The notes below the pieces were generated by a model, which worked only from the letters and a program-made list of their open reading frames with translations, made no database searches and was not told where the DNA came from. Below are positions 9,174 to 64,000 of a stretch of 64,000 nt of DNA, piece after piece. Numbering within the stretch: position 1 is the first letter of the stretch; each line of letters opens with the position of its first letter. The stretch spans positions 620,001 to 684,000 of the forward strand of contig BCGQ01000006.1 in NCBI GenBank assembly GCA_001599355.1, written 5' to 3'. The translations under genes and the position numbers were made by a program. The DNA comes from Nakazawaea peltata. Taxonomy: Eukaryota; Ascomycota; Pichiomycetes; Alaninales; Pachysolenaceae.

Positions 9174-10310
9174 ATGTCAGTAATTGAAATCCCAAAGACC
9201 CAAAGAGCCCTCGTTGTCAGCGAGGAATATAAGCCAGTAGTCGAGGTCATCGATGTTCCAGAACCACTGGATGATCAAGTTTTGATTAAGACCATGCTGT
9301 ATGCTCTTAACCCAACTGATTGGAAGCATATGCTGTACAAGCTCGCTGAACCGGGGGCTGTTCTTGGATGTGATGCAGCTGGTGTCGTTGTTAAAGTCGG
9401 ATCAAAACTGGCTGAAAATTTCAAGGTTGGTGACAATGTTAGTATTTTCGTTCGTGGTGCGTACAAAAAACATCCTTACCCAGGTACTTTGGCAGAGTAC
9501 GCTTTGGGAGTTGCCAGAACTACCATTAAATTCGATTATGAGTTGAAGCCTTCGACTGAAGAAGAGATTGCACCTGGTCCAATCGACACTTGGGAAGCTG
9601 CTGCTTCCTTGGCTCTGTGTTGGGCAACTGTTGGCTACTCTCTCTACAGTACTCTTGGACTCACCAAGGGCACTGATTATTCCAAAGAGAGCATCTTGAT
9701 TTGGAGTGGAGCCACTGCTGCTGGATCTAATTTGATCCAAGGTGCCAAATGGCTCGGATTTGGTAATATTATTACTACATCTTCTCCTAACAGATTCGAT
9801 GTTTTGAAGAAGTTAGGTGCCACCCACACTTACAGTTATAGAGATCTGGATGTCGTTGATCAAATCAGAGCTGATTTCGGTGACTCGATTATTTACCTGA
9901 TTGATGCCTGGGCCACCAAGGAAACTTGGGGAGCTTTGTACCAATGTGCTTCCAATACCAAGGATTCTTACTTAGATACTTTACTTTTCTTACAAGAGAA
10001 GGACTTGCCTGAGGATGTCCCAAGAAAGAAGACTAAAGTCTTTGTTGGTAGAACCTTTACTTTTAACGCATTAGGTGAGCAACACGCTTTCGGAGACGTC
10101 GAGGTTCCTCAGCTCACTACTGAACAATTGGACAGATATGATCAGTTCCAAAAAGATGCCCAAGAACTGCTTGACAAAAAACAAATTTTCAACATGCCTC
10201 TTAAAAAACTTCCTGGTGGTTTGAATGGCCTTTCAGAAGGGCTTCTGATTTTGGAGAGCGGAAATTATGGAAACATTAAGTTCGTTCTGACTGCGAGTGA
10301 GACAGCTTAA
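9174..10310 (+). CDS. Zinc-free medium-chain dehydrogenase/reductase, tandem copy 1 (YNL134C family)
   Basis: 378 residues, matching S. cerevisiae YNL134C-like proteins (376). Visible blocks are NPTDWKH, GCDAAGVVVKVG, the GroES-like N-terminal half, then a Rossmann half with WSGATAAGSNLIQGAKWLG and the strand/turn LGATHTYSYRDLD. There is no Cys/His set for catalytic zinc, so it belongs to the quinone oxidoreductase/enoyl reductase-like branch. It presumably reduces alpha,beta-unsaturated aldehydes or similar electrophiles with NADPH in the cytosol; the substrate is not shown by sequence. It is the most divergent of three same-strand paralogues. The CTG at 9297-9299 aligns with a conserved Ala, as in copies 2 and 3. 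Confidence 0.9.
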   Translation: MSVIEIPKTQRALVVSEEYKPVVEVIDVPEPLDDQVLIKTMLYALNPTDWKHMLYKLAEPGAVLGCDAAGVVVKVGSKLAENFKVGDNVSIFVRGAYKKHPYPGTLAEYALGVARTTIKFDYELKPSTEEEIAPGPIDTWEAAASLALCWATVGYSLYSTLGLTKGTDYSKESILIWSGATAAGSNLIQGAKWLGFGNIITTSSPNRFDVLKKLGATHTYSYRDLDVVDQIRADFGDSIIYLIDAWATKETWGALYQCASNTKDSYLDTLLFLQEKDLPEDVPRKKTKVFVGRTFTFNALGEQHAFGDVEVPQLTTEQLDRYDQFQKDAQELLDKKQIFNMPLKKLPGGLNGLSEGLLILESGNYGNIKFVLTASETA

Positions 10311-10711
10311 TTCGCAATGGTCTGTTGAAATTTTGGGTATATACGTGATATGACGCTACAGATTTCGTCATTTCGGCTCCCCCAAACACTTCCGAGCCAC
10401 ATCGCCATTTTATAATTGTAGATTTCCTCCCTTTCCGAGCCCTTCAATTAGTTTATTTCTTTTTTAGATTTTCATGCAGGTCTTCGGGGGGTGATTATTA
10501 ATACAAGGCTGAAATAAATTTTTTGTGAGCGCCGTATTACAAATTGTAGGAATTTGAGAGGGGGTTATTGAGAGTAGATAAAAGGGGGTCTAAATCCCAC
10601 TGTAGTTGCCTTGATACCTCTCTATTCAGTAGACCCTTCAGAAGCATCTTCTATTAGTTACTGAATTTTATAAATCCACTTAATTGGTACAATTATTTTT
10701 TTAAAGCGAGA
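10311..10711 (+). promoter_or_regulatory. Intergenic/promoter region between tandem reductases 1 and 2
   Basis: About 400 bp with AAATTTTTT runs and a TTAGTTACTGA stretch near 10652-10662, close to a Yap1-type half-site pair. No ORF or repeat is visible. It does not resemble the copy 1 promoter by eye, so any duplication of the promoter is old. Confidence 0.35.
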
Positions 10712-11830
10712 ATGACACAAATTCCAAAGACTCAGAAAGCCCTTGTTGTTGATGACAAATTGAACCCGGTCGTTAAGACCATTGAAGTCCCGGAACCACT
10801 GGATGATCAGGTTTTGATCAAGGCTGAACTGTATGCTCTTAATCCAACTGATTGGAAGCATATGCGTTTCAATGTCTCCCATCCTGGTGCTGTTGTCGGT
10901 TGTGATGCGGCTGGAGTCGTTGTCAAAGTTGGCGCTAAACTGTCCGAGGAATTTAGTGTGGGGGACAAGGTGAGTATTTTTGTGCGCGGTGCATACGAAA
11001 AACACCCCTTCCCAGGTGCTTTTGCTGAGTATGCTTTGGGGGTTGCCAGTACTACCTTCAAGTACAATTATGATTTGGAACATTTGAGTGGCGAGAGTAC
11101 TGCAATTACTCCTATCACTACTTGGGAAGGTGCTGCTTCTTTGACCTTGACTTTGGTTACTGTTGGACTTGCTTACTATCTGGGTATTGGTTTAACTAAG
11201 GGGGTCGATTATTCCAAGGAGAGTATTTTGATTTGGAGTGGAGCTACTGCTACAGGATCTACTCTGATTCAGATCGCTAAATGGCTTGGTTTTGGTAATA
11301 TTATCACCACTGCTTCTCCAAATAGATTTGACTCATTGAAATCTCTTGGTGCTACCGACACTTACAACTACAGAGATCTGGACGTTGTTGATCAAATCAG
11401 AGCAAAGTACGGTGACTCAATTATATATCTGTTTGATACTTGGGGTGACAAGGATACTTTCAGTTCTATGTATCAATGTGTCTCCAATACTAAGGATTCG
11501 TTCTTGGATTCTGTCTATTTCTTAGAGGAAAAAGATGTCAAGGAAGATATCCCTAGAAAAGCCACCAAAGTTTCTGTTTCTAAAACTGTCGGCTACAATG
11601 CTATGGGAACCGACACTATTTTTGGCGATCTTCATCTCCCAGTCACCGCTCATGATTTGGAAAGATACGCTCAATTCCGTAAAGATATCACCGAGTTTAT
11701 TGACTCCGGGAAAGCCAAAAATATTCCGCTCAAGAAACTTCCAGGTGGTTTAGATGCAATTCCAGATGGACTTCTGGTCTTAGAGAGTGGAAACTACGGT
11801 AATGTCAAGCTTGTACTGAGCTCAGAGTAA
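10712..11830 (+). CDS. Zinc-free medium-chain dehydrogenase/reductase, tandem copy 2 (YNL134C family)
   Basis: 372 residues, closely similar to the flanking copies over the full length. It shares NPTDWKHM, GCDAAGVVVKVGAKL, FVRGAYEKHPFPGAFAEYALG, WSGATATGSTLIQIAKWLG and a C-terminal LPGGLDAIPDG block. The predicted fold is a GroES-like domain followed by a NAD(P)-binding Rossmann domain, without zinc ligands. The CTG at 10829-10831 sits on the conserved Ala before YALNP. Function is inferred from family only: NADPH-dependent reductase, probably stress or xenobiotic related. No signal or targeting sequence is apparent. Confidence 0.9.
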   Translation: MTQIPKTQKALVVDDKLNPVVKTIEVPEPLDDQVLIKAELYALNPTDWKHMRFNVSHPGAVVGCDAAGVVVKVGAKLSEEFSVGDKVSIFVRGAYEKHPFPGAFAEYALGVASTTFKYNYDLEHLSGESTAITPITTWEGAASLTLTLVTVGLAYYLGIGLTKGVDYSKESILIWSGATATGSTLIQIAKWLGFGNIITTASPNRFDSLKSLGATDTYNYRDLDVVDQIRAKYGDSIIYLFDTWGDKDTFSSMYQCVSNTKDSFLDSVYFLEEKDVKEDIPRKATKVSVSKTVGYNAMGTDTIFGDLHLPVTAHDLERYAQFRKDITEFIDSGKAKNIPLKKLPGGLDAIPDGLLVLESGNYGNVKLVLSSE

Positions 11831-12077: not shown

Positions 12078-13208
12078 ATGTCCGAATTACCTAAAACCCA
12101 AAAAGCTCTTGTTGTCAATGACGATCTCGAGCCTGTCATTGCCTCAATTGAGGTTCCTGAGCCTCTGGAAGATCAGGTCTTGATCAAGACCAAACTGTAT
12201 GCGCTTAACCCAACTGACTGGAAGCATATGCTGTTCAAAATCTCGGAGCCTGGATCTGTTGTTGGTTGTGATGCTGCCGGAGTAGTAGTCAAGGTTGGTT
12301 CCAAGCTGGCTGAACAATTCAAAGTAGGAGACAACGTTGGTATCTTTGTTCGTGGTGCTTACGAAAAACACCCATATCCTGGAGCATTTGCTGAGTATGC
12401 TTTGGGTATTGCCAGAACCACTTACAAGTACAATTATGATTTGGACGAGATGACTTCCGAAAAGGCTGAGATTGGTCCAATCACCACTTATGAAGGTGTA
12501 GCTTCTTTGACTTTGAGTTTAGTTACCGTTGGATTCTCATTCTACCTGAACCTTGGTCTTTCTAAGGGTACTGACTACTCTAAAGAGAGTATTTTGATTT
12601 GGAGTGGAGCCACTGCTGCTGGGTCTGTCCTGATTCAAATAGCCAAATGGCTTGGTTTTGGTAATATCATCACTACTGCTTCTCCAAGCAGATTTGATGT
12701 GTTGAAATCCTTCGGTGCTACTCATCTGTTCGATTACAAGGCTTCCGATGTAGTTGACCAGATCAGAGGTGAGTTTGGTGATTCAATTATCTATCTGTTC
12801 GACACTTGGTCTGACCAAGACTCCTTTAGTACCATGTATGAGTGTGTTTCCAACACTAAGGACTCATTCTTGGACACTTTACTCTTCTTGCAAGAGGATA
12901 ACTTGAAGGAAGGAGTCACCAAAAAGTCTACCAAGGTCTCTATTGGAAGAACATTGGCCTACTGTGCTATGGGAACAGATGCTTATTTCGGTCCTACTAT
13001 TCATATCCCAGTCACCGAAGAACAATTGGTCAAATATGATCAATTCCACAAGGATGTTCAATCTTTACTTGATAACAAAGGTATTTCCCATATCCCTCTT
13101 CAAAAACTTGCTGGTGGTTTGGAAGGTGCTTCAGCTGGGTATGATACTATGAAGTCAGGAGCCTATGGTCATGTCAAGTTTGTTTTGAACGCTAAAGAGA
13201 CCAAATAA
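12078..13208 (+). CDS. Zinc-free medium-chain dehydrogenase/reductase, tandem copy 3 (YNL134C family)
   Basis: 376 residues, the third member of the array and closest to copy 2. Conserved blocks are NPTDWKHM, GCDAAGVVVKVGSKL, FVRGAYEKHPYPGAFAEYALG, WSGATAAGSVLIQIAKWLG and LAGGLEGASAG. The spacer to copy 2 is only ~247 bp, with a T-run and an AT-rich leader. The CTG at 12195-12197 again occupies the conserved Ala position. The tail LNAKETK is not a canonical peroxisomal signal. The array has convergent neighbour SUB1 on the right (83 bp between stop codons). Confidence 0.9.
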   Translation: MSELPKTQKALVVNDDLEPVIASIEVPEPLEDQVLIKTKLYALNPTDWKHMLFKISEPGSVVGCDAAGVVVKVGSKLAEQFKVGDNVGIFVRGAYEKHPYPGAFAEYALGIARTTYKYNYDLDEMTSEKAEIGPITTYEGVASLTLSLVTVGFSFYLNLGLSKGTDYSKESILIWSGATAAGSVLIQIAKWLGFGNIITTASPSRFDVLKSFGATHLFDYKASDVVDQIRGEFGDSIIYLFDTWSDQDSFSTMYECVSNTKDSFLDTLLFLQEDNLKEGVTKKSTKVSIGRTLAYCAMGTDAYFGPTIHIPVTEEQLVKYDQFHKDVQSLLDNKGISHIPLQKLAGGLEGASAGYDTMKSGAYGHVKFVLNAKETK

Positions 13209-16609: not shown

Positions 16610-19372
16610 TTACAATTTAGATCCCTTATCGGACAATTTGAATCCAGCAGCTCCAATTACCAAGCTGTTTCTTTCCTTAACCCAGGTCTCAAATACGATA
16701 AAGTTGGACGATTTCTTCCATGCTTTGACCACCAAAGTCTCACCCGGATAAACATAACTGGTGAATCTTAACTTCACCTCCTCTAATTTACCGTAATGTT
16801 TCTCCAATAATCTAGCAGACATACCGTAGAATCCCAATCCATGTAAAATTGGTCTCTCGAATTTAGCCCCCTTTGCAAATGCTGGTTCAATATGAAGAGG
16901 ATTGAAATCGGCATTTAATCTGTACAAAGCCAGCAGATCTTCGCTAGTTTTGTACTCGGCTACGAAATCTGGTTCGGAATCTTTTGGAGACTTGAAATCA
17001 TTGGTATTGAATTTCAGTGGCTTCTTGAACCAAACATCTTTACCAGACTTGGTGTTACAATTTCTAACGAAGAATGATCCCTCGTTATAGTAAATCAATT
17101 CTCCGGAATCCTTGTCAATTGTTTCATATCCTGCAATTATGATTACATTCTTGCCCTTGTTGATCAAAGCAATTGGGGAAGGTTTAGTAATGAGGGTACC
17201 GCTAGTTGGGAGAATAGATTTCTCCACTTTCAAATATTGCTCACCGTGAAGTAAGAACATAGGATTGAAGCCTTTAAGGTACTCTTCAATATCGATTCCC
17301 ATACCCAGTTGCATGAAAGGAATTACACCAAATGACCTGACAGGTTGGAAATCGTTATGATTTTCGTAGACATAATTCAAATCCTTAGCTGTGGCTCCAA
17401 TACTCAAGTTATAGAGGATAATTTGACGGTGATCATACTTATAAACTTGGTCATCTTCTTTTTCATCCTCATTCTCTTCTTCTTCTTCTTCTTCTTCTTC
17501 TTCTTCTTCTTCTTCTTCTTCTTCTTCTTCTTCTTCTTCTTCTTCTTCTTCTTCTTCTTCTTCTTCTTCGTCATCATTATCCTCATCGTCAAAGTTTGAA
17601 AGAATAGCCATTGTTGATTCTTGAACACTCTTTGGATTCAAGCTATCTGGACCAAAACCTGTGACTTCGGCGAAATGTTCAGCGACAAACTCAGGAGAAG
17701 GAGCCAGATCGTGAGAAACTGCTCCTTTCAGTCTTTGCCATCTTGTATTTCCAATCCATCCACCTCCAACTTCGAATAATTCACCATTTACTGGAGGTTT
17801 TTCTTGGGTCAAGACAATCAATAATGGGGAAACCAACTTTGGATCGTATTTATTCATATCAGAAGCTCCAAAAATGGTCTTAGTCATAGCAGTTTCCAGA
17901 TGAGGAGCAATAATATTGGTTACAATATTGCTCTTGATACCTTCGATTGCCAAAGTTCTAGACATACCCAAAATTCCCAATTTGGCAGCACTATAATTCA
18001 GTTGACCAAAGTTACCATAAATTCCAGAAGTGGAGGTAACATTGATAATACGGCCGAATTTTTGCTTCAAGAAATGAGGCCAACACAGTTTGCACATTCT
18101 GTAAGTAGCCATAAGATGAATTTGGATCACTTGATCCCATTCTTGTTGTGACATTTTAGCAAAAGAACGGTCTCTCAAAATACCGGCATTATTGATTAAA
18201 ATATCAACTCTTCCGTATTTTTGAATGGCAGTTTCTACAATTTTATCAGCGTCGTGGAAAACGTCGAATTTCAGACCAACGGCATCACCTCCCAGCAGTT
18301 TAATTTCCTCAACGCAAGTTTCTGCATCTTTGAAATCATTAACAACTACTTTGGCACCGTATTTGGCAAACAAATGCAGATGGGCACGTCCTAATCCAGC
18401 TCCAGCTCCTGTGATAATGACTACCTTGTCCTTCAAAGAAACCTTAGATTTAGTAGAAGCGACAGAAGGCAATGTTTGAACATAGTCCCAAATCTTACCA
18501 TAATCGTTCAATTGAGTAGGATGTTGTTTTTTGTCATCAAATTTCAAGATTTCATCGAAACGATCCTGAATGGCTTCTGGAGTATATGAAGAATCAGGTT
18601 TCAAGAATAAACCATTGGATCTCTCCCATCTGATCTGACCATACCAACCAGCGGCAAGCTCAAAAATGGCACCAGTGCTCTTAACAGAATCATGGGCCAA
18701 ATAAACAACCAAAGGAGCAATTTTTTCAACACCAATTTTCTCCAAAATGTCGGCTGGCAACAAATCTTCAGTCATTCTGGATCTGGCCATCGGAGCAATT
18801 ACATTGACCTTGATATTGTTTTTGTAACCTTCACGGGCCAAAGTCTCTGATAATCCCACGGTCAGCAACTTAGCAGCGGAATAATTGGCCTGGCCAAAGT
18901 TACCGTACAATCCAGCAGGTGACAGAGTATTGACGATTCTTCCATAGTTTTGCTTGCGGAACACATCCCAACAGAGTTTGGTCAAACGGAAAGCTCCATT
19001 CAAGTGGACATCGACAACAGTCTTGAATTGCTCTTCGGTCATATTCTTGAAGGAGGTGTCTCTCAAAATACCGGCATTGTTGATCAAAATATGAACAGTG
19101 CCGAAATTAGATATGGCCGTATTGAAGATACCCTCGGCGTTGGTAACGATGTTGTCATAATTGGCAACGGCGGTACCACCGGCCTTACGGATCTCCTCCA
19201 CAACGACATCAGCGGCTTTGGTGGAATTTCCAGAGCCACCCAAAGTACCTCCTAAATCATTGACCACAACTTTAGCACCCCTAGAGGCGAACATCAAGGC
19301 GTAGCATCTACCGAGACCACCTCCGGCCCCGGTAATAATGACAACTTTATCTTTAAACGACAATTGAGACAT
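16610..19372 (-). CDS. FOX2: Peroxisomal multifunctional enzyme (Fox2): two 3-hydroxyacyl-CoA dehydrogenase domains plus hydratase 2
   Basis: 920 residues (S. cerevisiae Fox2 is 900). Two tandem short-chain dehydrogenase domains (~1-300 and ~310-600) each show the glycine-rich VVIITGAGxGLGR, NNAG and the catalytic NYSAAK. Residues ~650-920 are a MaoC-type hydratase 2 with the DxNPLH motif (ADFNPLHIEP) followed by RPILHGLGFYG. The C-terminal tripeptide SKL is a canonical type 1 peroxisomal signal. The enzyme hydrates trans-2-enoyl-CoA and oxidises (3R)-hydroxyacyl-CoA in beta-oxidation. Between SDR2 and the hydratase lies an acidic linker with an uninterrupted Glu run (residues ~601-634), encoded by a GAA/GAG microsatellite, which I do not recall from other Fox2 proteins. 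Confidence 0.96.
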   Translation of the reverse strand: MSQLSFKDKVVIITGAGGGLGRCYALMFASRGAKVVVNDLGGTLGGSGNSTKAADVVVEEIRKAGGTAVANYDNIVTNAEGIFNTAISNFGTVHILINNAGILRDTSFKNMTEEQFKTVVDVHLNGAFRLTKLCWDVFRKQNYGRIVNTLSPAGLYGNFGQANYSAAKLLTVGLSETLAREGYKNNIKVNVIAPMARSRMTEDLLPADILEKIGVEKIAPLVVYLAHDSVKSTGAIFELAAGWYGQIRWERSNGLFLKPDSSYTPEAIQDRFDEILKFDDKKQHPTQLNDYGKIWDYVQTLPSVASTKSKVSLKDKVVIITGAGAGLGRAHLHLFAKYGAKVVVNDFKDAETCVEEIKLLGGDAVGLKFDVFHDADKIVETAIQKYGRVDILINNAGILRDRSFAKMSQQEWDQVIQIHLMATYRMCKLCWPHFLKQKFGRIINVTSTSGIYGNFGQLNYSAAKLGILGMSRTLAIEGIKSNIVTNIIAPHLETAMTKTIFGASDMNKYDPKLVSPLLIVLTQEKPPVNGELFEVGGGWIGNTRWQRLKGAVSHDLAPSPEFVAEHFAEVTGFGPDSLNPKSVQESTMAILSNFDDEDNDDEEEEEEEEEEEEEEEEEEEEEEEEEEEEEEEENEDEKEDDQVYKYDHRQIILYNLSIGATAKDLNYVYENHNDFQPVRSFGVIPFMQLGMGIDIEEYLKGFNPMFLLHGEQYLKVEKSILPTSGTLITKPSPIALINKGKNVIIIAGYETIDKDSGELIYYNEGSFFVRNCNTKSGKDVWFKKPLKFNTNDFKSPKDSEPDFVAEYKTSEDLLALYRLNADFNPLHIEPAFAKGAKFERPILHGLGFYGMSARLLEKHYGKLEEVKLRFTSYVYPGETLVVKAWKKSSNFIVFETWVKERNSLVIGAAGFKLSDKGSKL
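17475..17569 (-). repeat. In-frame GAA (TTC) trinucleotide repeat in FOX2
   Basis: About 31 uninterrupted TTC units on the + strand (GAA on the coding strand), encoding poly-Glu at the linker between dehydrogenase and hydratase modules. Its purity suggests recent expansion by slippage. Confidence 0.97.
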
Positions 19373-23147: not shown

Positions 23148-26100
23148 TCACTCATAATCCAAAATATTCTTCTTAGCAAACTCCTTAATCTCAGGAACAG
23201 GTATCTCAGGAACATAATACACCATTCCATTCTCATCAAGTCTTTCACGATCCCTCTCACTGATATTGTAGATCTCCTCAACGTTATCCTTTAAAAGTTG
23301 AATCAACTCGATGAAATTCTTTTGAATTTGATACAGTTGTTGTCTCATATTACGTCTCATCAACCCTTCGATCAAACGAATCAGCTCGGGTTGAGTTTGC
23401 TCGGCTCTTTCAACTAATCTACCCACACTCTTAACAAGGTACTCTTCCTCATAGATAGTTCCCTTCTTACCACGAGCTCTCTTTCTTTCCTCTCTTCTTC
23501 TGTTCTTCAGAGTTCTTCTAGAAGCACCTGTCTTGGCTGTTCCAGCTGTCTTACCAGTGTAACGGGTGAAGAAGGACTCTTTAGTTGATGTTTCCGAAGC
23601 GGCAACCGAAACATTATCAGGGGTATCACCGTTATCAACTCCATCACCATAGAACAGATAAGGATCTTCGGCCTTCTTGGCACGTAACTCTCTTAATCTC
23701 GTCAATTGAGAATTCACTTGCAGTTTACAATCGGCAAGTAACTCCAGGATAACACCGAATCCTTCTCCTAACAGAGAATCGATCACCTCCTCGATCAACT
23801 CAGGTCTCTTCTCATCGATACATGTCAAGATGGCTACTTCATAGTTGTATTCTTTACAGTACAACTTCAACAGTCCTTCAAGGTCACCGAGGTATTTGAG
23901 TTGGATTTGCAGCAGGGAGGAGTATTGATGGTCGTCTGTAAGCAGAGAGATCAATCTATCACATACTTCCTGGAACTTCTCCCCGGCATATTCAGGTCTA
24001 AGAGCGATCAGAAGCAGTTCTCTCCATTTCTTCAGCAAAATATACTCTTCTAAAGCGTTCAGCCAGTCATGAAGTAAATCATAGATCAATCCCAGCTCGG
24101 CGAACTCGGTTTGTTCATGTAAATATGACAGATACAAGTTCAAAATCTCATTTGTCTTGTCCAAGTCGTCCTTATAGATTCCCAAAGCATGTTGGTACAA
24201 TTTGTGTTCGACAACATAGTTGGAGATCTCATTAGCTTCCAATTCCAGTTCAGGTAACAGACATAAAGAGTCCAACAGCTTGGAATGATTCTTCAAATAC
24301 GAATCGACAAGGAATCTCCTTCTCAATTCGGTCTGAGTATGTAAGTTTTGTAAGAATGGAAGGTATTCTTTAGGATCCTTCTGAGATTGTTGGGCAATGA
24401 CAAGAGCCAAACGAACATTGTATAATGACAAGGCAACATCGTACAATTTATTCACGTCTTGTAAGAAACAAACATGAGTGACACTCTTCTCGATCTCATC
24501 AGGAGAAGTAAATGACCCAATAAGAGTCAAGGCATCGGTCAAGTTTGGAGGATTCTCACAAGCATAGGCAGTAATGATAGTCTGCATATACTGTTTCTTG
24601 TATTCCGGTCTCAACAATACCAGTAAAATCAGTTCACAGATCTTATTAACTTTACTGTCCTTTGGATCAATTCTGAGATGACGAGGATGACCAGAGACGT
24701 TGACTTTGGCCTTGAATTCATTCAGCAATACTTCATCTCCAGTAAGAGTCAAAGTTTCCCTGTATTTGGTCTTGGTGACGTCTTCCTCGTGCAAACAAGA
24801 GACGAACAAATCCAAATATTCGATCTTTTCGATCTGTTTAACGAACTCCTCGATATTCAGAAGGAATAACTCAGGGTCATAGTCATGTAAGATATCCAAG
24901 TCGATTCTATGAGTTCTACAGGTCAAGAAAGCGTTCTTGAAGTTGAGGTCTTTGATATCTTTTCTGACCCCGGTAAGAGTCATGATACGAGGATAGATTG
25001 TCTCCAAGTTACCTCTTGGCAGTTGTAAGACGACGGCCAGTTTAGAAGGCATAGTAGCTACTAAGATGGAACCTCTTTCTATCATTCTAATACGCTCATC
25101 AGAAGACTCGTTTTGAGCCAGTACATCTTCACCAGTTTGGGCATTTTCAACCACTTGGAATTGCAGGTCCAGGTTCAAATGTACGAATTTCAACTGGTTT
25201 TGAGCTGTAGTATATAATAAGTAAGACTCGGTGACTCTAAGAGAGGTCACCAGAGATGTCAATTGCTGATCATTGGCATATAATTTACCGTTAGAAGATA
25301 CACCAAAACAGGCTACATTTGGACCCAAGGCAAGAGCATTATCGAACTGGTTATCCCATTCATTGGTCAGCAGATCATTCAGAGCCGAGGAAGGTAACAC
25401 AGCTACTTTATAATCATGACACAATTGAGGGAAATGACAAAGCTCGGTGCTTTCACCATTCAACGTATCTAAAGAGAATACTTTACCTTGAACTGTTTCG
25501 TAGGTGACCAGAGCAAAGTCTGACCGTTGTTCTAAGAGCACAATCTTTGGCATTACATCTACAGTGGTTCTGAGAACTGGACTAGTTACATCTGTGCAAT
25601 CAATGATAGCCAATTTGGAGTTCACAGCCGTGTCGTACAATACAACTACAGTATCATTTGAGACGAAACTAATTTGACGAACATGTTCGTCTACAGCAGT
25701 ACCATTGATACCGATCTCGGAGATATGTAAGGTCGAAACGATCTCTGGATGTTTACCTTTGGTTTGCATATCATTAAGAGAAGAAATTTGCAGGATATTG
25801 ACTTCATTCTCGGTCAACATGGCGAAAAGACAGTTGTTTTGGGAGACAGAACAGTCCAGAATTGGCTCTTCACACTCGATTTCTCTGTAACTAACAGGGG
25901 GAGGAACATTAGCAATGGATAATGGGGTCAAATTCAAAGTTCTTCCGTCGATAAAACATGTCATTCCCACATCGAATGGCGCAGACGTGGGTCCATTGAC
26001 CATTTTACGTGCTAAATCTACAATATTAAGCATGGAATCAGTTCCGAACATGATTCTCAATGGGTTCTCTTGGTGAAACTTGACGAAATTGATCTTCTCC

Positions 26101-27203
26101 GATGATTGGATCTCCTGTTTTAATGACCAATGATAATTCTTACTGGACCATAATTGGATAGAATGACTCAATTGGAAACATAAGATTTCAGAATCACAAG
26201 ACCAATCTAAAGCTACGATTTTGGACAGAGGCGGTAATCTGGAGGCGAACTCTCCATGTCTTAACCCATTTCTCTCGAAAAATACAAGATCCAAGACTTC
26301 CTCACCGATCTCTTCCTCCAAACGTCTTTGTACAGACAGAATTAAAGCACCTTGAGGTTTCCAGCTAAGACATTCTTCAAGTCCATCGACAGCCTCAGAA
26401 CAACTGTCCAATTCTCCATCTCTGGAATATACTCTGATTACTCTACGATTAGATCCTGCCTCTGTTTCTTCAACAGAAGACACACTGAAATACAGACAAT
26501 CTCCTCTCCAAGAAATGTAGCTCTCGAAAGTATCATATTCACTCAATTGTCCTTGCTCGATGATACCCAAAGTTGGGTCTCTCAATTGGTCATCGTTATC
26601 ACCTAATCCTGCATGCTTCAACAGCATCTTTTCTCTTTCGATCAGACGGGCTCCACGTCCTTGGAATTGGGTCTCTTTCTTACCCCATCCAACACTGACT
26701 TGAGTCTTAAGGTCGATTTCCAGAGGGTCCAAACGTTTCTCCAGAATCAGCTCGAACATCCTGGAAAGAATGACCATATTATTCTCATTGGTGAGCATCA
26801 GCAAGGACTCTTCATCCGGACTCCATGCCGCACATTTCAACCCACAATCAATCGACCCTACAATCTCCACTATAGTCGTATCTGGGTCGGGCATCTCCAA
26901 GTCGTAGGTCAGAGTTACGATGTCTCCATGCTCTAAAACAAAGACAAGTTGGCAAATATCGGCGAAATGTACGAAACTTAACAACTTATCACCTTCATGA
27001 CCCAATGGGAAACTCAGAAGTATCCTTATCTCCCCTGTCTTCATGAACTGTTGCACTTCTAAAAGCTGGGCTTCAGCGCTGCCCATCACGACGGTGACAC
27101 TGTCGCTGATGGGGTCGAAATTCGACGTCAAGACACTCAAATCCGGATAAGTTCTTGACTCAGGACGTAACTGGCCTTTATTCAATACCACCAAGTTCTT
27201 CAT
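23148..27203 (-). CDS. IKI3: Elongator complex subunit Elp1/Iki3
   Basis: 1351 residues (S. cerevisiae Iki3 is 1349). The N-terminal ~750 residues form the WD40 double propeller (GWGKKETQFQGRGAR, ISWRGDC, FFERNGLRHGEF, WSSKNYHWSLKQE), followed by a TPR-like helical C-terminal half (RTHRIDLDILHDY, AYACENP, LPFLQNLH). Near the end, SRRTLKNRRREERKRARGKKGT is the conserved basic tRNA-binding region, then IYEEEYLVKSVGR. Elp1 scaffolds Elongator, which modifies wobble uridines (mcm5/ncm5) of tRNAs in the cytoplasm. CTG codons at 26337-26339, 25020-25022 and 24015-24017 align with Ala in the S. cerevisiae protein as I recall it. Confidence 0.97.
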   Translation of the reverse strand: MKNLVVLNKGQLRPESRTYPDLSVLTSNFDPISDSVTVVMGSAEAQLLEVQQFMKTGEIRILLSFPLGHEGDKLLSFVHFADICQLVFVLEHGDIVTLTYDLEMPDPDTTIVEIVGSIDCGLKCAAWSPDEESLLMLTNENNMVILSRMFELILEKRLDPLEIDLKTQVSVGWGKKETQFQGRGARLIEREKMLLKHAGLGDNDDQLRDPTLGIIEQGQLSEYDTFESYISWRGDCLYFSVSSVEETEAGSNRRVIRVYSRDGELDSCSEAVDGLEECLSWKPQGALILSVQRRLEEEIGEEVLDLVFFERNGLRHGEFASRLPPLSKIVALDWSCDSEILCFQLSHSIQLWSSKNYHWSLKQEIQSSEKINFVKFHQENPLRIMFGTDSMLNIVDLARKMVNGPTSAPFDVGMTCFIDGRTLNLTPLSIANVPPPVSYREIECEEPILDCSVSQNNCLFAMLTENEVNILQISSLNDMQTKGKHPEIVSTLHISEIGINGTAVDEHVRQISFVSNDTVVVLYDTAVNSKLAIIDCTDVTSPVLRTTVDVMPKIVLLEQRSDFALVTYETVQGKVFSLDTLNGESTELCHFPQLCHDYKVAVLPSSALNDLLTNEWDNQFDNALALGPNVACFGVSSNGKLYANDQQLTSLVTSLRVTESYLLYTTAQNQLKFVHLNLDLQFQVVENAQTGEDVLAQNESSDERIRMIERGSILVATMPSKLAVVLQLPRGNLETIYPRIMTLTGVRKDIKDLNFKNAFLTCRTHRIDLDILHDYDPELFLLNIEEFVKQIEKIEYLDLFVSCLHEEDVTKTKYRETLTLTGDEVLLNEFKAKVNVSGHPRHLRIDPKDSKVNKICELILLVLLRPEYKKQYMQTIITAYACENPPNLTDALTLIGSFTSPDEIEKSVTHVCFLQDVNKLYDVALSLYNVRLALVIAQQSQKDPKEYLPFLQNLHTQTELRRRFLVDSYLKNHSKLLDSLCLLPELELEANEISNYVVEHKLYQHALGIYKDDLDKTNEILNLYLSYLHEQTEFAELGLIYDLLHDWLNALEEYILLKKWRELLLIALRPEYAGEKFQEVCDRLISLLTDDHQYSSLLQIQLKYLGDLEGLLKLYCKEYNYEVAILTCIDEKRPELIEEVIDSLLGEGFGVILELLADCKLQVNSQLTRLRELRAKKAEDPYLFYGDGVDNGDTPDNVSVAASETSTKESFFTRYTGKTAGTAKTGASRRTLKNRRREERKRARGKKGTIYEEEYLVKSVGRLVERAEQTQPELIRLIEGLMRRNMRQQLYQIQKNFIELIQLLKDNVEEIYNISERDRERLDENGMVYYVPEIPVPEIKEFAKKNILDYE

Positions 27204-31093: not shown

Positions 31094-31336
31094 ATGTTCG
31101 CCAGAATCGCCACCAAGCCTATCACTGCTAGACAGATTGTTTCCAGAAGATTCTTATCTTCCACCACCACCAGATTGGCCCCACACTTTGAAGACGGTGT
31201 TTACACCAACTTGCCATTCAAGGTTCATAACAGAAGAGTTCCATACCTGGTTCCACACTTCTTGTTCTTCTTCATCGGTATGGGTCTTCCATTCTTTGCT
31301 TGTTATGTCCAATTGAAGAGATCTGGTTCTTTATAA
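31094..31336 (+). CDS. COX8: Cytochrome c oxidase subunit VIIc (Cox8)
   Basis: 80 residues (S. cerevisiae 78). The N-terminal ~28 residues (MFARIATKPITARQ..., ending in Arg-rich RRFLSSTTTR) form a cleavable mitochondrial presequence. The mature part HFEDGVYTNLPFKV, one membrane helix and ACYVQLKRSGSL match Cox8. I use the ATG at 31094; the in-frame TTG codons upstream are not likely starts. The CTG at 31247-31249 in VPYxVPHF aligns with Ala of S. cerevisiae TPYALSHF, another CUG=Ala site. Confidence 0.95.
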   Translation: MFARIATKPITARQIVSRRFLSSTTTRLAPHFEDGVYTNLPFKVHNRRVPYLVPHFLFFFIGMGLPFFACYVQLKRSGSL

Positions 31337-51603: not shown

Positions 51604-52404
51604 ATGGCACAAACTTATACTGAAAGAGCTGCTGCACACAATTCAGCTGTCGCTGCTAAGCTTTTACGCTTGATGGACGAGAAGAAGACCAACTTGTGTG
51701 CTTCTGTTGATGTCCCATCCACTAGTGAATTTTTACTGTTGATCGATAAGCTTGGTCCATTCATTTGCCTTGTCAAGACTCATATCGACACTATTGATGA
51801 CTTCTCATATGAAGGTACTGTTAAACCTTTGATTGAGTTGAGTCGTAAGCATAACTTTATGATCTTTGAAGACCGTAAATTCGCTGACATTGGTAACACT
51901 GTTAAGAATCAATACAAAGGTGGTGTATACAAGATTGCCGAGTGGGCTGATATTACAAATCTGCATGGTATTACTGGAGCTGGTATTGTTAAGGGTCTTA
52001 AAGAAGCTGCAGCTGAAACCACATCGGAACCAAGAGGTTTATTGATGCTTGCTGAGCTTTCTTCTAAAGGTTCATTGGCTGTTGGAGAGTACACTCAAAA
52101 GACCGTTGATATTGCTAAGACTGATAAGGATTTCGTTATTGGATTCATTGCTCAAAACCTGATGGGTGGTGCCGATGAGGGATTCGACTGGTTGATCATG
52201 ACCCCAGGTGTTGGTTTAGATGACACTGGAGATGCTTTAGGACAACAATATAGAACTGTTTCAGACGTATTCAGCACTGGAACTGATATTATCATTGTCG
52301 GTCGTGGATTATTCGGTAAGGGAAGAGATCCTGTCGTCGAAGGTGAAAGATATAGAAAGCTGGGATGGGAACTGTACCAAGCTAGAGTTGGTAATGATAA
52401 ATAG
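51604..52404 (+). CDS. URA3: Orotidine-5'-phosphate decarboxylase
   Basis: 266 residues, full-length Ura3. Key blocks: [22 protein letters not shown], the catalytic [12 protein letters not shown] (Lys and Asp), [26 protein letters not shown], and [15 protein letters not shown]. It decarboxylates OMP to UMP in de novo pyrimidine synthesis. Of five CTG codons, three (51961-51963, 52360-52362, 52372-52374) align with Ala in the near-invariant NAHG and YRKAGWEAY segments, and none with Leu. This gene alone strongly suggests CUG=Ala. It converges with the carrier gene (156 bp). Confidence 0.98.
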
Positions 52405-54293: not shown

Positions 54294-57200
54294 CTACAAT
54301 CCAATCAACTCTTTCAACTGTTTCAATACTCCAACATCCTTCTCATCTTTATTCTCCTCACTCAATATCAAATACATGTTCTTCAACATCTCAACCAGTT
54401 GCTCTTCAAAGTCCTTGGATTGCAGTTTCCGGATCATCAACTGAACAATCTTCACATATTTCAACAAATACCCACTTTGCATCCTCTTCAACCCTACACG
54501 AAGATAATACTTAGTGATCATCTTGAGAATATTGATATCCATTTGATTCTCAGGTTTCATGATATCGGCAAGTAAAGCAAAGAGACAGTTCTCAGAGACA
54601 GAGTCGGCCGAGATGGAGGTACTTTCTACTGATGCCATCAAGGTGGTCTCTAACAGTTGAATGGCATAAACTCGAATCTCAGTGCATGGGTTATAACATT
54701 GATGACACAACAGCTGAATTAATACTTTATAATCTACAATCAGCTTGATACTTGCGGTCAATTTAATCGACTGGATCGAAGTTTGGATCACTCCTTCATA
54801 TGGGTTACGTTCGCTTTCTACTTTATGACCTGTCTTGACTAATCTTTCATACTCTTTCTCCCATTGCAGTCCTACAGCTCCAGCTGAGCTGATCTCATCG
54901 AGTAATCCGAGAATAAGGAAGTAATTCTCATGAGAAATACACTTCTCCACTCTCAGATTGACCAAATCAAACACTTCACGATTATGTTTCAAAGAGGAAG
55001 CAAACGTACGCATCAACATCCAATACTGTTCTTTATCACGAACCGCTTGTTTAGTCCATGATTCGTCATCGAGTAAAGCTCCAAGAGGTTTGATAAGAGG
55101 AGTACCATACTTGATAAGTTGCAGTTTATCGACAGAATGAACACGTTCAAGAGTTTGTGTGAGAATAGACTCTTTCAGGGTCTTGGAATTTCTCAAAAGT
55201 AACAACTTATAGGTACATAAACGTACAAGAGTTGATACACGAATCGTTGCAGGTTTAGACTCTTCTTCGCGTGGTTGTTTAGCAGCTTTTCTTCTTGCGG
55301 CTGCAGATCCAGATTTGTCTTCTACAGGAGCAATTGAATGAGCCATCAGAACATCACCTACATTGATTTCGAGGTCCACATTTGGCAGCTCTTTAGCTAC
55401 AGCAGCATCAATTGATCTTGTTTCGATTTCTTCAGGCTCAGGAGTCATGACTTGCTCCAGTTGTTTCGAACTTTCGAACAAATCATCGATAATCTTGATC
55501 AACATAGCAATAATCGACTCGTTCATCGATACCAAAGACAAACAAACGGCAGTTTCCAAGATGAAAATGACTTCTGAATCATAAAATCTCAGAGTCAGTT
55601 TAGATTTCACCGGCAACAACTGAACTAATAACTTGACAAAGCGATCGGCATTCTCAGAAGAAGTATTACTGATTGTACTGATCAAACGAAGCAAACTACT
55701 TGATCTGATACAGTTGATAGTCGACAAAGTGGACTGGATTTCCTCATCAGTTGGTTCTGGAGGCTCGTCTGAGTACCCCTTCAAGAAGGCCGAGAATGAG
55801 GACAAGAATCCCGACTCTTTCAACAGTTTGGATCTATTGATATGGAATTGAGGTTTGACCTTTGGAATTGGAGGCAAATTCAATCTAGACTGGAATTCTG
55901 GGAACATATCTGGGTCGACAAGACAATTCTCGAATAAGGTAAGAAGAATTGTTGCGATATTGAGCCAATGAGGAGTGACACGGTACTCGCATTTACGGAG
56001 AATACGGAAGAGTTCGATAGTGGACAATTGCAGTTTGAAATCTCTACCGAACCAAACACTGACTTCACTAACGGTGATAGTTTCATGAGATTCTTTTACC
56101 TCGATTTGAGTCACTGGGATCACATCACGAATCGACCCATCATCAACTATAAGTTGAGACAGTTTAACACCAGTAAGAGTTGTGAGATGACTGAGAATCT
56201 CCACGAGTTTATCAAGAGTCGAATCCAAACCGAAATGACTGGCAATATTCAGACATCTATCGATTGTAGTCATCATTCTGGTGATGATATGGTCATCAGA
56301 AGCCTCTTCAAAGATGGTGAGAAGAGTTGAAATGACTGGCTCGGATGTCTTGATGAAGAGTTCTTTGTCGAATTGGGTTGTATCGGAGAGATCAAGTGGA
56401 TGAAGGAGATCAAACGAAGTATCGGAAGCTCTCAGTTTAGCTGTCTCATGTTGGAGAATCAAGTTTGTCCACATATCATCGAACCATTTAGTAGTACCAT
56501 GATGTTCTTCAGGGATAATGATCTCTCTTTCTTTGATGCTGTTGTAAATACCTTCAAGATACCAGCTTGGGAAGTCTTTTCCACCATAAACACCACGAAG
56601 ATTACGTTGATATTCGGTGAGAGTCATGTGGTTTTTGATCTTAGGGTTGTGCAGATCGGTATTCAACATGATAACCGAGTAAGAGAGGACGAAAACTGCG
56701 TCTTTATCAGGATGAACAGGTTCATGATCAACTGGGGTTGGGGTTGACAGTGAATTTTCACTAGTTTCTTGACATCTTACGTATTTGTCAGCAAATGTTT
56801 CGACAATTCTTTCAATTTGTTGAGATTCTCCTGGTAATCTGAAACTTTTAAGCAAGACTCTCAACAGCTCATCGACTCTCAAGCCGGTGAAGTCGAAAAG
56901 GTCCATGAAACGTTTCAATAAATCGAGGTTTGATGGTTTGGCAAGTAATTCACCGAGCTTTTTCTTATTTAAACCGGCACTTTTCTCGAAATAGAACTTG
57001 GCAAGTTCATCAAGGTCTGAAAGATCACTTATGAATCCCTTTGAATGAAGCAGCAGGAGTCCTGCTTTGTTATTCTCATTGAGGAGTTTCATACACTCGA
57101 GGAATTCTTGTTTTTGATTCTTTTGGACAATGAGACGGTGAGGGTCTGAAGCTTGGGCCAGTGGTTGCAGTCTAATTCTGTCATTTATCCCATTGATATA

Positions 57201-59138
57201 TGCTAATAATCCTTCTAAAGCTATTGGAGGGACATTATCGGTGCTCAACAACAGCGAATCTGGCAATGACAATCTACAAAGATACTTGATAGTGCTAACA
57301 GCAGTATCACTTCTGTCGAAATCACAGTCATAATTGGTGAAAAGATGAACAAAGAAGTGAGGGAAACGTGACCAAAGGATCGAGGTTGTTTCAAGAAGCA
57401 TCTCCTTCGAGAGAGAAGATCTCAGAGTCGAAGGGAGGGCAGAAGAGATACCAGGGGAAGAATCTCCTCCAACAGACCCGATACTTGGACGAGGATCATC
57501 GCCGGAATTATGTCTAGTTTCAGCATCATTCTCGTCAAACCTCAGGAATCTCTCACTGTTACGTCTTAAATCATCACAGACCTTATCGAAGTCCGGAGCG
57601 ATACTTTTAAAGACTGTTTGTAAGATAAGCTCGACTTGCAACTTCAATTCGTCTCCCAAGTTGACAGTCAATGCGATGAAAAGCTGTAATGCCGCATAAA
57701 GTAAGGATGGCTGGTCGACTATTTGCAAGGTCTGGAGTAAGTTTTTGCAAACAGGGTCTGAGACAAGAGCGAGAATCGAGGGATGATGAGGAAGGTAAGT
57801 AGAAGAAGCTTCGATGGCTGTTGTGAGGAGAGAGAATGCAAAGACTCGAGTACTTTCCATGTGCTGGTATTGATTGGAGGGGGAGATCATGTAGATAAGA
57901 ATAGAGAGGTATTCTTTAATGCAAGGGATTCCGTACGGTTTTGATGGGGAGGATGGAAGGGAGTCGGGGAGAGAGTCTGGAAGAGTGTCTGGTTGAGATT
58001 CTGGTTGAGACTCAGCTTGAGGTCCTTTAGAAGGACTTGGTTCTGAGTTATTACTGGCTTGGTCAGACTCTGTGGTTTCGTCAGTTGGTTGAGAAGACCC
58101 GTTAGTCTGTTTCTCAGCTGATTTTTCAGTCAGATCAGTATTCTCAGTATCCTCTGTGGAGGGTACTGTCGAGGGTACCGTTGAACCAGTGCTGTCTGTA
58201 CTTTCTGTCCCTCCAATAGTATCCTCTTGCAACTTTGAAACCCTCAACACAGGCTCCTCTACTACCTTGAATCTCTCCGGTTTAATATCACGAAGCTTAC
58301 CAAATATACGTATAGTAATAGAAGTCATAGCCATCTCAGCAGCTCTTCTCAACACCTCGGACCGTCTCTTATTACAAGCCAAGGAAAGACAGGTCTGGAT
58401 GACCTCATAGACAACTTCATCGGGCAAAAGATCACCCAAATCCGAGTTCAAAGTGATCTCCAAAAGACGTAAAACCTTCAACAAGACAGCGTCATCGCTG
58501 GCCTGATCTCCTGCCTCAAAACGACAACGCGTAAGAGCAGCAACGACCTGCGGAAGAGCCTGCTGGATGTTATTGGAGGCCGGCGACACGATGGAGTACT
58601 GGAGGAACTTGGATAATGACGATAACAGGAGCAGGGTGATGTATCCGGAGGTGGAAGACGACTTGATCACCATCAAGAAGGGCTGTAAGAGGGTGAGAGT
58701 GTCGACATCAGCGATATTATGGACGTCTGAGAGGAGGATTCTCAACTGGATGAAGCCGCTGACGAGAGGGCTGTCGGATTTGTGGAGGTCTTTTGATGGT
58801 TGTGACTGAGGAGAGGTGGCGGTGTTCTCACCTAGCACTTTGTGGGAGGATTTGGACGCGTAAGGAGAGGATTTGGAGCCGAATCTGGAGGTTGATGGCG
58901 ATGGTGGCGAGCCTAACGCGGCGGCGGCGGCGGTAGAAATTTGAATTGGGCTCGGAGATCCGGTCGATTCGGCGGGTTCATCGAGTCCAAAGAGAAGGTC
59001 GCGCCCATGGCCACCCAAGATCAGGGCGGCAACGCCACTCTGAGACCATTTGGGGATCTTACGCATCTCGGAGGAGATGGTGATGCATTCTCCAATCACC
59101 AAAGTGAGAGGATCCGCCGTTTTAACGTGACTTGACAT
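54294..59138 (-). CDS. GEA2: Large Arf guanine-nucleotide exchange factor Gea1/Gea2 (GBF1 family)
   Basis: 1614 residues (S. cerevisiae Gea2 is 1459). The N-terminal DCB/HUS region (SGFIQLRILLSD, LTLLQPFLMV, LSLACNKRRSEVLRRAAEMAM) precedes the Sec7 domain (~700-880) with FRLPGESQQIERIVETF; the catalytic glutamate is residue 771. FILSYSVIMLNTDLHNP-type and IIPEEHHGT blocks follow, then C-terminal HDS helices including GLLDEISSAGAVG. It activates Arf1 at the early Golgi for COPI coat assembly. The extra length comes from a Ser/Thr/Pro/Gln-rich insert (~300-400) and other linkers. The CTG at 56865-56867 matches Ala of Gea2 RVDEAIR. Confidence 0.95.
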   Translation of the reverse strand: MSSHVKTADPLTLVIGECITISSEMRKIPKWSQSGVAALILGGHGRDLLFGLDEPAESTGSPSPIQISTAAAAALGSPPSPSTSRFGSKSSPYASKSSHKVLGENTATSPQSQPSKDLHKSDSPLVSGFIQLRILLSDVHNIADVDTLTLLQPFLMVIKSSSTSGYITLLLLSSLSKFLQYSIVSPASNNIQQALPQVVAALTRCRFEAGDQASDDAVLLKVLRLLEITLNSDLGDLLPDEVVYEVIQTCLSLACNKRRSEVLRRAAEMAMTSITIRIFGKLRDIKPERFKVVEEPVLRVSKLQEDTIGGTESTDSTGSTVPSTVPSTEDTENTDLTEKSAEKQTNGSSQPTDETTESDQASNNSEPSPSKGPQAESQPESQPDTLPDSLPDSLPSSPSKPYGIPCIKEYLSILIYMISPSNQYQHMESTRVFAFSLLTTAIEASSTYLPHHPSILALVSDPVCKNLLQTLQIVDQPSLLYAALQLFIALTVNLGDELKLQVELILQTVFKSIAPDFDKVCDDLRRNSERFLRFDENDAETRHNSGDDPRPSIGSVGGDSSPGISSALPSTLRSSLSKEMLLETTSILWSRFPHFFVHLFTNYDCDFDRSDTAVSTIKYLCRLSLPDSLLLSTDNVPPIALEGLLAYINGINDRIRLQPLAQASDPHRLIVQKNQKQEFLECMKLLNENNKAGLLLLHSKGFISDLSDLDELAKFYFEKSAGLNKKKLGELLAKPSNLDLLKRFMDLFDFTGLRVDELLRVLLKSFRLPGESQQIERIVETFADKYVRCQETSENSLSTPTPVDHEPVHPDKDAVFVLSYSVIMLNTDLHNPKIKNHMTLTEYQRNLRGVYGGKDFPSWYLEGIYNSIKEREIIIPEEHHGTTKWFDDMWTNLILQHETAKLRASDTSFDLLHPLDLSDTTQFDKELFIKTSEPVISTLLTIFEEASDDHIITRMMTTIDRCLNIASHFGLDSTLDKLVEILSHLTTLTGVKLSQLIVDDGSIRDVIPVTQIEVKESHETITVSEVSVWFGRDFKLQLSTIELFRILRKCEYRVTPHWLNIATILLTLFENCLVDPDMFPEFQSRLNLPPIPKVKPQFHINRSKLLKESGFLSSFSAFLKGYSDEPPEPTDEEIQSTLSTINCIRSSSLLRLISTISNTSSENADRFVKLLVQLLPVKSKLTLRFYDSEVIFILETAVCLSLVSMNESIIAMLIKIIDDLFESSKQLEQVMTPEPEEIETRSIDAAVAKELPNVDLEINVGDVLMAHSIAPVEDKSGSAAARRKAAKQPREEESKPATIRVSTLVRLCTYKLLLLRNSKTLKESILTQTLERVHSVDKLQLIKYGTPLIKPLGALLDDESWTKQAVRDKEQYWMLMRTFASSLKHNREVFDLVNLRVEKCISHENYFLILGLLDEISSAGAVGLQWEKEYERLVKTGHKVESERNPYEGVIQTSIQSIKLTASIKLIVDYKVLIQLLCHQCYNPCTEIRVYAIQLLETTLMASVESTSISADSVSENCLFALLADIMKPENQMDINILKMITKYYLRVGLKRMQSGYLLKYVKIVQLMIRKLQSKDFEEQLVEMLKNMYLILSEENKDEKDVGVLKQLKELIGL

Positions 59139-60223: not shown

Positions 60224-60336
60224 GGTATTGTAAGAAGTTTACGATGAAATGAGGAATAGACTATTAAGCAGCTCAGCTTATCACTGCACTAAACACATCT
60301 ACAACCTCCTGTATCTGCAAATAAATAAAATAAATA

Positions 60337-62744: not shown

Positions 62745-63275
62745 CACAGCAGTATATAGAGGTAACGAGTATTCAGGAGATATAAATTGAGTAGTGGAGT
62801 GTAGTCAGTGTAGTCCGATAGGAGATAATTAATTAGGGTGTGCTGAGTCTCGTGTAATTGAGTAGATCTGCCTAGCTTCCAGCAGACTGTAATTGAATAG
62901 TTCAAGGTGAATCTCAAATTGGGGATACAGGTCGTGTATTTTGACTCAATTATTTGGTGTAACGATGTACAAGGGTTACATCACCGCACCAGAAGAGGTG
63001 GATAAGAAACAGAGGTAAACCCTCTAAACCACCCACGGAATGAGCTGTCCTTGTATAAACAGCTCACTCGAGTCCCTCTATCCCAAACATGCCAACCCCT
63101 CAATGCCCAACCCCTCAGCACCCCAAACCAGCCAGTCCCTCAACCCCATCTCCCCCATCTCTGGTCGTGCACAATCTCCCAAAATCAAAAATTTTCCGCC
63201 CTTCTTTTCCATCGGCGCTTAATCTTCAAAAGCTTCCCAACCACCACCAAGATACAAACCACCCCCCATTAAACG
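62745..63275. promoter_or_regulatory. PSE1 promoter region
   Basis: 531 bp with GGTCGTGTAT (62930-62939) and GGTCGTGCAC (63163-63172, 104 bp before the ATG), and TCAAAAATTTTCC (about 63184-63197). A ccccaaccctcaatgccc-like Pro-rich repeat region near 63090-63150 shows no coding features. Confidence 0.45.
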
Positions 63276-64000
63276 ATGTCACAGATCCCTGAAGAGTACC
63301 GCGCTCCTTTAGGAGCCTTGGTGAACCTGTTGGCAGCCGCAGACAACCAGATGCGGTCCCAAGCCGAGAAATCTTTACACTCTGAGTGGGTCAAGAAAGG
63401 CAAGGTGGAAATTATGTTGTTGTATTTGGCGGAGAGAAGTAGTGGCGTTGGAGAGGCGGTCGATGAGGTGCAGAGACTGTTTGCCGCTGTGTTGTTCCGT
63501 AGAATTCTGACCAGGATGCCCGATGGACCGGGCTTCTCGGTCACTCTGAGAGTCATCGACCATATTGAGCCTGCTGTCAAGGAGCAAATCCGTCTGGTTT
63601 TGGGCCAAGGGTTCATGGCTGGAGGGTTGAGTCGTAGTGTGCGCCATAAGATTGCCGATGCGATCTCGGAATGCGCCAAATCCGCTTCGGAATCGGCCTC
63701 CGATTGGCCCCAATTGTTACCGATGTTGTTCGAGGCCACCAAAAGTGGAGACTCGAGTTTCCGTGAGTCGCTGTTCCGTGTCTTTGGAAGCACACCTGAG
63801 TTGATCGACCGTAGTCTCATTGACAACGTGTTGCCGGTGTTCCATGCTGGGTTTGAGGACTCTGACGATGACGTCCGGATCGCTGCTGCTACTGCTTTTG
63901 TAGCTTGTTTCCAACAGCTTCCAAAGAAACTGTGGGCTCAATTGTCGGTTCTTTTACCTTCGTTGCTCAATTCTTTGCCTAGATTGTTGGACAATGGGAA
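63276..64000 (+). CDS. PSE1: Importin Pse1/Kap121 (beta-karyopherin, importin-5), N-terminal part cut by right edge
   Basis: 241 residues from the ATG at 63276, running off the window in frame. It aligns closely with S. cerevisiae Pse1: start MSQIPEEYRAPLGALV, DNQMRSQAEKSL, AAVLFRR, SVRHKIADAISECAKS, WPQLLPMLFEATKSG, FRESLFRVFGSTPELI, and LLPSLLNSLPRLLD. These are HEAT repeats 1-5 of a nuclear import receptor. CTG codons 63327-63329, 63477-63479 and 63507-63509 align with Ala in Pse1. About 850 residues should lie beyond the edge. Confidence 0.95.
   Translation, partial: MSQIPEEYRAPLGALVNLLAAADNQMRSQAEKSLHSEWVKKGKVEIMLLYLAERSSGVGEAVDEVQRLFAAVLFRRILTRMPDGPGFSVTLRVIDHIEPAVKEQIRLVLGQGFMAGGLSRSVRHKIADAISECAKSASESASDWPQLLPMLFEATKSGDSSFRESLFRVFGSTPELIDRSLIDNVLPVFHAGFEDSDDDVRIAAATAFVACFQQLPKKLWAQLSVLLPSLLNSLPRLLDNG

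Follow-up and report, generated by a model that had tools for sequence, protein, structure and literature searches.

Alanine as the meaning of CTG in a window of nuclear DNA from a yeast akin to Pachysolen

In a 64,000-nucleotide stretch of yeast nuclear DNA (G000:C6:620001-684000, here called the window; genome 11.63 Mb in 11 contigs; GC content 41.8%), in-frame CTG codons stand at positions where homologous proteins carry alanine. We conclude, with a probability of about 97%, that the window belongs to a CUG-Ala yeast akin to Pachysolen, in which CUG is read by an alanine-charged tRNA(CAG) encoded by a single-copy gene. An earlier note on this DNA had assigned the window to the CUG-Ala clade and had called that assignment new. 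The assignment is borne out by a residue tally, by tRNA(CAG) and by trees that join the window to Pachysolen; the novelty is not, as the clade and its code are already in print (PMC5951914, PMC11540330) and the order has been named Alaninales.

CTG at conserved positions

Residue tallies were made for three window genes, picked by length and CTG number and all among the examples of the earlier note, with CTG masked as X and every CTG in them counted:

38605..41643, minus strand: SPT16 (FACT subunit); 23 in-frame CTG; 82 of 118 homologues kept; PDB match 7xt7
23148..27203, minus strand: IKI3/ELP1 (Elongator 1); 47 in-frame CTG; 76 of 118 homologues kept
54294..59138, minus strand: GEA2-like ARF-GEF (Sec7 domain); 33 in-frame CTG; 104 of 118 homologues kept

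Homologues were the best 120 of 293 for SPT16, of 1756 for IKI3 and of 433 for GEA2. The two top matches per gene (Pachysolen and one further relative), which possibly share the code or are mistranslated, were removed before tallying, and the remaining 118 were thinned at more than 60% common 6-mers. Columns with less than 70% occupancy were skipped, leaving 91 of the 103 CTG in the tally and no usable column for CTA; a column was called conserved when at least 80% of the 76-104 homologues carried one residue.

Twenty-four CTG fell in conserved columns, and the residue was Ala in 21 of them, with one each of Pro, Glu and Leu. At column thresholds of at least 90% and at least 60%, Ala accounted for 14/16 and 30/38, respectively. 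The other Leu codons matched Leu in 191 of 195 conserved columns in total (CTT 42/42, CTC 13/14, TTA 49/49, TTG 87/90), and the Ala codons GCT and GCC matched Ala in 13/19 and 15/18. A Codetta-like log-odds score over the 91 CTG columns gave Ala +115 bits, Ser -42, Thr -159 and Leu -266, while 58 of the 60 scored codons, including the four other scored Leu codons, received their standard meaning; the exceptions were CTG and CGC, the latter scored on 2 columns. These codon controls, in both the column tally and the log-odds, rule out a chance coincidence of CTG with Ala. The sole CTG in a column of at least 80% Leu, GEA2 codon 829 (56652..56654, minus strand), lies within a Ser/Thr/Pro-rich stretch, and its alignment is therefore doubtful. 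Such a tally had been proposed as a check in the earlier note, and it favours Ala over Leu and Ser by column counts and log-odds alike.

Ten other window proteins, nine of which have a Pfam family, were translated under tables 26 (CUG-Ala), 12 (CUG-Ser) and 1 (standard). Best-family bits summed over the nine proteins were highest under table 26 (1284.3, compared with 1246.4 under table 12 and 1233.6 under table 1), which scored best in eight of the nine. Domains also confirmed the identities previously proposed for EFG1 (KilA-N) and COX8 (COX7C):

35341..36879, minus strand: EFG1-like KilA-N/APSES regulator; 33 CTG; Pfam bits 42.5 (table 26), 38.0 (table 12) and 35.9 (table 1)
31094..31336, plus strand: COX8 (Pfam COX7C); one CTG, at 31247

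Additionally, CTG sites of six proteins were read by eye against the best PDB match of each, and the 40 aligned CTG corresponded to Ala 23, Ser 4, Glu 4, Asp 2, Pro 2, Leu 2, Thr 1, Arg 1 and Val 1:

32812..34110, plus strand: IDP1, NADP isocitrate dehydrogenase; 8 CTG, 7 aligned (Ala 6, Thr 1); 2qfv
51604..52404, plus strand: URA3, OMP decarboxylase; 5 CTG (Ala 3, Glu 1, Asp 1); 3gdk
63276..63998, plus strand: PSE1 (importin beta-3), cut at the window end; 7 CTG (Ala 3, Ser 3, Glu 1); 3w3z
16610..19372, minus strand: FOX2-like peroxisomal multifunctional enzyme; 15 CTG, 11 aligned (Ala 7, Ser 1, Asp 1, Glu 1, Leu 1); 2et6 (residues 1-593)
42985..43650, plus strand: YPT31 (Rab11), 3' coding part; 2 CTG (Ala 2 in 5ub8; Ala 1, Thr 1 in S. 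cerevisiae 3cpj)
9174..10310, plus strand: reductase 1 of an ADH-like tandem array; 10 CTG, 8 aligned (Ala 2, Pro 2, Arg 1, Val 1, Leu 1, Glu 1); 3b6z

All 25 coordinates at which the earlier note had placed a CTG hold one in frame. Its sites in URA3, IDP1, YPT31 and PSE1 are Ala in these best matches. At IKI3 codons 289, 728 and 1063 and at GEA2 codon 758, 88-99% of homologues have Ala, as do 98% at SPT16 codon 759. Two further SPT16 sites put forward as conserved Ala proved weaker than claimed, with His 38 and Ala 36 among the 82 homologues at 41451 and Ala 43 and Ser 38 at 39153, and the context letters 'NVAQ' and 'DEAIR' were wrong, the actual ones being NV[CTG]K and DE[CTG]LR.

tRNA genes and decoding of CUG

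Rfam and ARAGORN detected no tRNA within the window, and the search for the decoding apparatus was therefore extended to the remaining contigs and sequence. Anticodon patterns revealed one tRNA gene with anticodon CAG (G000:C4:81426-81499), single-copy in the genome. Its ARAGORN cloverleaf, which contains a U6-U67 mismatch, has a short variable loop, G1-C72, G2-C71, G3-U70 and A73, and the tRNA also carries A35 and G37; the ARAGORN label, Leu, derives from the anticodon only. The G3:U70 pair is the established alanine mark, and by eye it was found in the genome's own tRNA-Ala(AGC) and tRNA-Ala(UGC) and in 0/16 other class-I tRNAs compared. A general tRNA family search with 63 scored genes missed tRNA(CAG). 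The anticodon patterns comprised a wide one with 136 matches, of which those listed reach into contig 6, and patterns with intron-less spacings that covered all contigs (26 and 43 matches, each assessed by eye), so that an intron-bearing class-I CAG gene on contigs 7-11 could have gone unnoticed. ARAGORN analysis of 123 loci took in part of the pattern matches.

Over its whole length, tRNA(CAG) is identical to Ala-AGC at 51/74 positions and to Val-UAC at 52/74. Across the acceptor arm, variable loop, T arm and discriminator, identity is higher to Ala-AGC (30/37) than to Val-UAC (25/37), while the 19 positions of the D arm match Val-UAC at 17, Gln at 16 and Ala at 13. tRNA(CAG) appears to be a mosaic that combines a Val/Gln/Glu-like D arm with acceptor, variable and T arms resembling tRNA-Ala; these identities agree with either a tRNA-Val or a tRNA-Ala as its source gene. 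The tRNAs of the Ala clade are said to stem from tRNA-Ala genes (PMC5951914); the one described here is no near copy of its own genome's tRNA-Ala.

Leucine tRNAs were collected with two class-II 5'-half patterns. The pattern with the longer D loop gave eight matches (CAA 5, UAA 2, AAG 1), and the short-D-loop pattern gave another eight, consisting of tRNA-Leu(UAG) and seven serine tRNAs. The tRNA-Leu(UAG) gene (G000:C4:804518-804725, minus strand) comprises 88 bases plus a 120-nucleotide intron and has a long variable arm; with its D loop one base shorter and its long intron, it had escaped the longer-D-loop pattern. ARAGORN found it when introns of up to 400 were allowed, and reported none at up to 120 on a short stretch, while Rfam gave no match on a longer stretch. 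It is the one leucine tRNA that might compete for CUG. No class-II tRNA(CAG), of Leu or Ser type, was present among the matches of the two 5'-half patterns (8+8, up to 3 mismatches, any intron) or, by eye, among 43 matches of a 3'-half pattern, although more divergent genes could escape these. Of the two genomic tests proposed in the earlier note, the tally had favoured Ala, and the second also came out as predicted, with a tRNA(CAG) bearing G3:U70 present and no tRNA-Leu(CAG) detected.

Among valine tRNAs, a pattern with a 5-base variable loop and no intron gave 13 matches, which by eye included five Val-AAC and one Val-UAC and no Val-CAC, though GTG occurs at 11 per 1000 codons. An ARAGORN 'Val-CAC' turned out to be a misread intron-bearing Leu-CAA gene.

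From these genes we infer charging, base modification, competition between tRNAs and the protein product as follows. Bearing the alanine mark G3:U70, and with an alanyl-tRNA synthetase (AlaRS) that is independent of the anticodon, tRNA(CAG) should be charged with alanine; recognition would proceed via G3:U70 and A73, and the tRNA would deliver alanine to CUG. AlaRS has been reported to function without need for particular anticodon bases (PMC5951914). tRNA-Leu(AAG), presumably inosine-modified, would read CUU and CUC, still as leucine, and the single tRNA-Leu(UAG) would read the rare CUA. The latter could in principle wobble to CUG, but a modified U34, together with the perfect pairing of the alanine tRNA's CAG anticodon, probably keeps leucine largely off this codon. 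The U34 modification that prevents tRNA-Leu(UAG) from reading CUG is the normal eukaryotic state and was lost in Saccharomyces (PMC5951914). Since CUG sites have been chosen as alanine sites over evolutionary time, any leucine reading must be minor.

Placement, codon usage and related systems

FastTree phylogenies of SPT16, IKI3 and GEA2 (17-18 sequences each, midpoint rooted) united the window, one further relative and Pachysolen tannophilus in a clade with support 1.0 in 3/3 trees. Identity to Pachysolen was 69% over full SPT16, 63% over full IKI3 and 58% over half of GEA2, levels that indicate a species other than Pachysolen tannophilus, and no match identical to the window occurred among the best 120 per gene. 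Pachysolen, Nakazawaea and Peterozyma belong to the Pachysolenaceae in the order Alaninales (NCBI taxonomy). We therefore regard the window, with high confidence, as DNA of a CUG-Ala yeast of the Alaninales using table 26, that is, a known code in a further member genome. Its genes must be translated with table 26; the standard code would introduce a wrong residue at about 27 per 1000 window codons, and for 46747 codons sampled elsewhere in the genome the figure is 18 per 1000.

CTG is abundant in the window, with 378 occurrences in 13841 codons (22 open reading frames, 22 stops included), or 27.3 per 1000, a count close to that of GCT (381) and above those of GCC (229), GCA (105) and GCG (37); the Leu codons numbered TTG 533, TTA 271, CTT 249, CTC 130 and CTA 12. 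In the sample from elsewhere, which comprised 124 mechanically called open reading frames of at least 200 codons at 89 loci rather than curated genes, CTG occurred 860 times (18.4 per 1000) and GCT 1080 times. Homologues agree on Ala to at least 80% in 57 columns, and CTG occupies 21 of these. In the same columns, Pachysolen and the one further relative each have Leu in 2/57, with the relative gapped in 2, a comparison that is informative only if these proteins were translated by the standard code; in that case, it would mean that those relatives have little CTG there. CUG has been described as relatively rare in recoded clades and as tending to avoid conserved sites (PMC5951914), whereas here it is abundant and stands at conserved Ala sites. 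CTG is thus a leading Ala codon in this DNA, which is less expected given the reported rarity. If its use is high genome-wide but not in relatives, this would be a good species in which to study the spread of a captured codon, and also how a resident tRNA-Leu(UAG) stays off CUG.

The system resembles the CUG-Ala code of Pachysolen tannophilus, Nakazawaea and Peterozyma (NCBI table 26) in its Ala columns at CTG, a tRNA(CAG) of alanine identity, no detected tRNA-Leu(CAG) and the grouping with Pachysolen. With the CUG-Ser1 clade (Serinales, table 12), it shares a new tRNA(CAG) reading a reassigned CUG, and the anticodon loop has the G37 that most Ser1 species carry (PMC5951914); it differs in that the residue is Ala, the tRNA has a short variable loop that is not serine-type and the CUG columns are not serine. 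The CUG-Ser2 clade (Ascoidea, Saccharomycopsis) likewise has a reassigned CUG, but no second tRNA, a tRNA-Leu(CAG), was found here. In some Leu1 yeasts, too, a single leucine tRNA of the CUN box carries a very long intron; it is a tRNA-Leu(CAG) whose introns span 134-318 nucleotides and are thought by the authors to slow its maturation (PMC5951914); in our case, the anticodon is UAG, the yeast is CUG-Ala and the intron, at 120 nucleotides, is somewhat shorter.

These features could be combined into a single account, which we consider rather doubtful as a whole. In this lineage of the CUG-Ala clade, CUG would have become a leading codon for conserved Ala positions, and its reader would be one mosaic tRNA that did not arise by mere anticodon mutation of a resident tRNA-Ala, while the 120-nucleotide intron might, by analogy with the Leu1 yeasts, throttle the competitor tRNA-Leu(UAG). 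The state would then be a late, settled codon capture, possibly with low-level leucine ambiguity.

Contrary observations, rival readings and remaining genes

Several observations weigh against alanine as the meaning of CUG. With a tRNA-Leu(UAG) present, leucine might be inserted at some CUG. For tRNA(CAG), the minimum-energy ViennaRNA fold departs from the cloverleaf and does no better than shuffled sequences (z 0.15). In one F-BAR protein, the exception among the nine with a Pfam family, FCH and SH3_1 score 0.7 bit and 0.9 bit higher, respectively, under table 1. Another observation comes from the tandem reductases, in which reductase 1 is followed by two further copies:

10712..11830, plus strand: reductase 2; 9 CTG
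12078..13208, plus strand: reductase 3; 8 CTG

Many CTG sites are common to the three copies, with CTG opposite CTG in 18 pairs. The 18 non-CTG partners were Leu 7, Ser 4, Arg 2, Thr 2, Asp 2, Phe 1 and Ala 0, and by itself this pairing would favour Leu. Conserved alanine had been claimed at CTG sites of all three copies; the site in reductase 1 is Ala in the best PDB match, but across the copies CTG is never paired with GCN. A single substitution turns CTG into any of four Leu codons, and no GCN codon can be reached in fewer than two, so that recent copies would be expected to drift to Leu and not to GCN. We think that the pattern reflects mutation and not codon meaning, as if CTG and the GCN block of Ala codons were parted by a two-step barrier. 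The drift to Leu is not visible in deep alignments, where conservation, not one-step mutation, decides.

An ambiguous CUG, decoded mainly as alanine and in part as leucine through wobble of tRNA-Leu(UAG) or leucine charging of tRNA(CAG), is the likeliest of the rival readings, though we consider it unlikely. By analogy with C. albicans, A35, G37 and A73 in tRNA(CAG) leave room for some leucine charging, A35 and A73 also being of importance to the yeast leucyl-tRNA synthetase. In C. albicans, G37 is the reported cause of about 3% leucine charging of tRNA-Ser(CAG), and in Saccharomyces an unmodified tRNA-Leu(UAG) reportedly decodes CUG (PMC5951914); a tRNA-Leu(UAG) gene is present in our genome. 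However, Leu occupies just 1 of the 24 conserved CTG columns, at the doubtful GEA2 codon, and a modified U34 that excludes CUG is the standard eukaryotic state (PMC5951914). Alignments are blind to low-level misreading.

Serine as the meaning of CUG, as in the Serinales (table 12) or the Ser2 clade, is very improbable and is refuted by the residue tally. Ser is indeed the second-ranked residue in the log-odds score, as expected for Ala columns, but its -42 bits stand against +115 for Ala, none of the 24 conserved columns is a Ser column, the class-II patterns (43 matches; 8 matches) contain no Ser-type CAG tRNA, and the trees join the window to Pachysolen. The standard code, with the Ala coincidence a product of selective reading by eye, could draw on the Leu partners in the reductases, the presence of tRNA-Leu(UAG) and the two weak SPT16 sites, but is refuted and as good as excluded by tRNA(CAG) and by a tally that gives Leu -266 bits over 91 columns while scoring the four other Leu codons as Leu.

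Alongside these results on alanine decoding, three features of window proteins were observed. In the FOX2-like protein (16610-19372, minus strand), 32 consecutive glutamates separate the second dehydrogenase domain from the hydratase domain. An open reading frame at 2-640 (minus strand), cut at the window edge, encodes a repetitive protein rich in Thr, Ala and Glu that matches no Pfam family and at a guess could be a cell-wall protein. A protein with a CHZ histone chaperone domain is encoded at 43721-44158 (minus strand).

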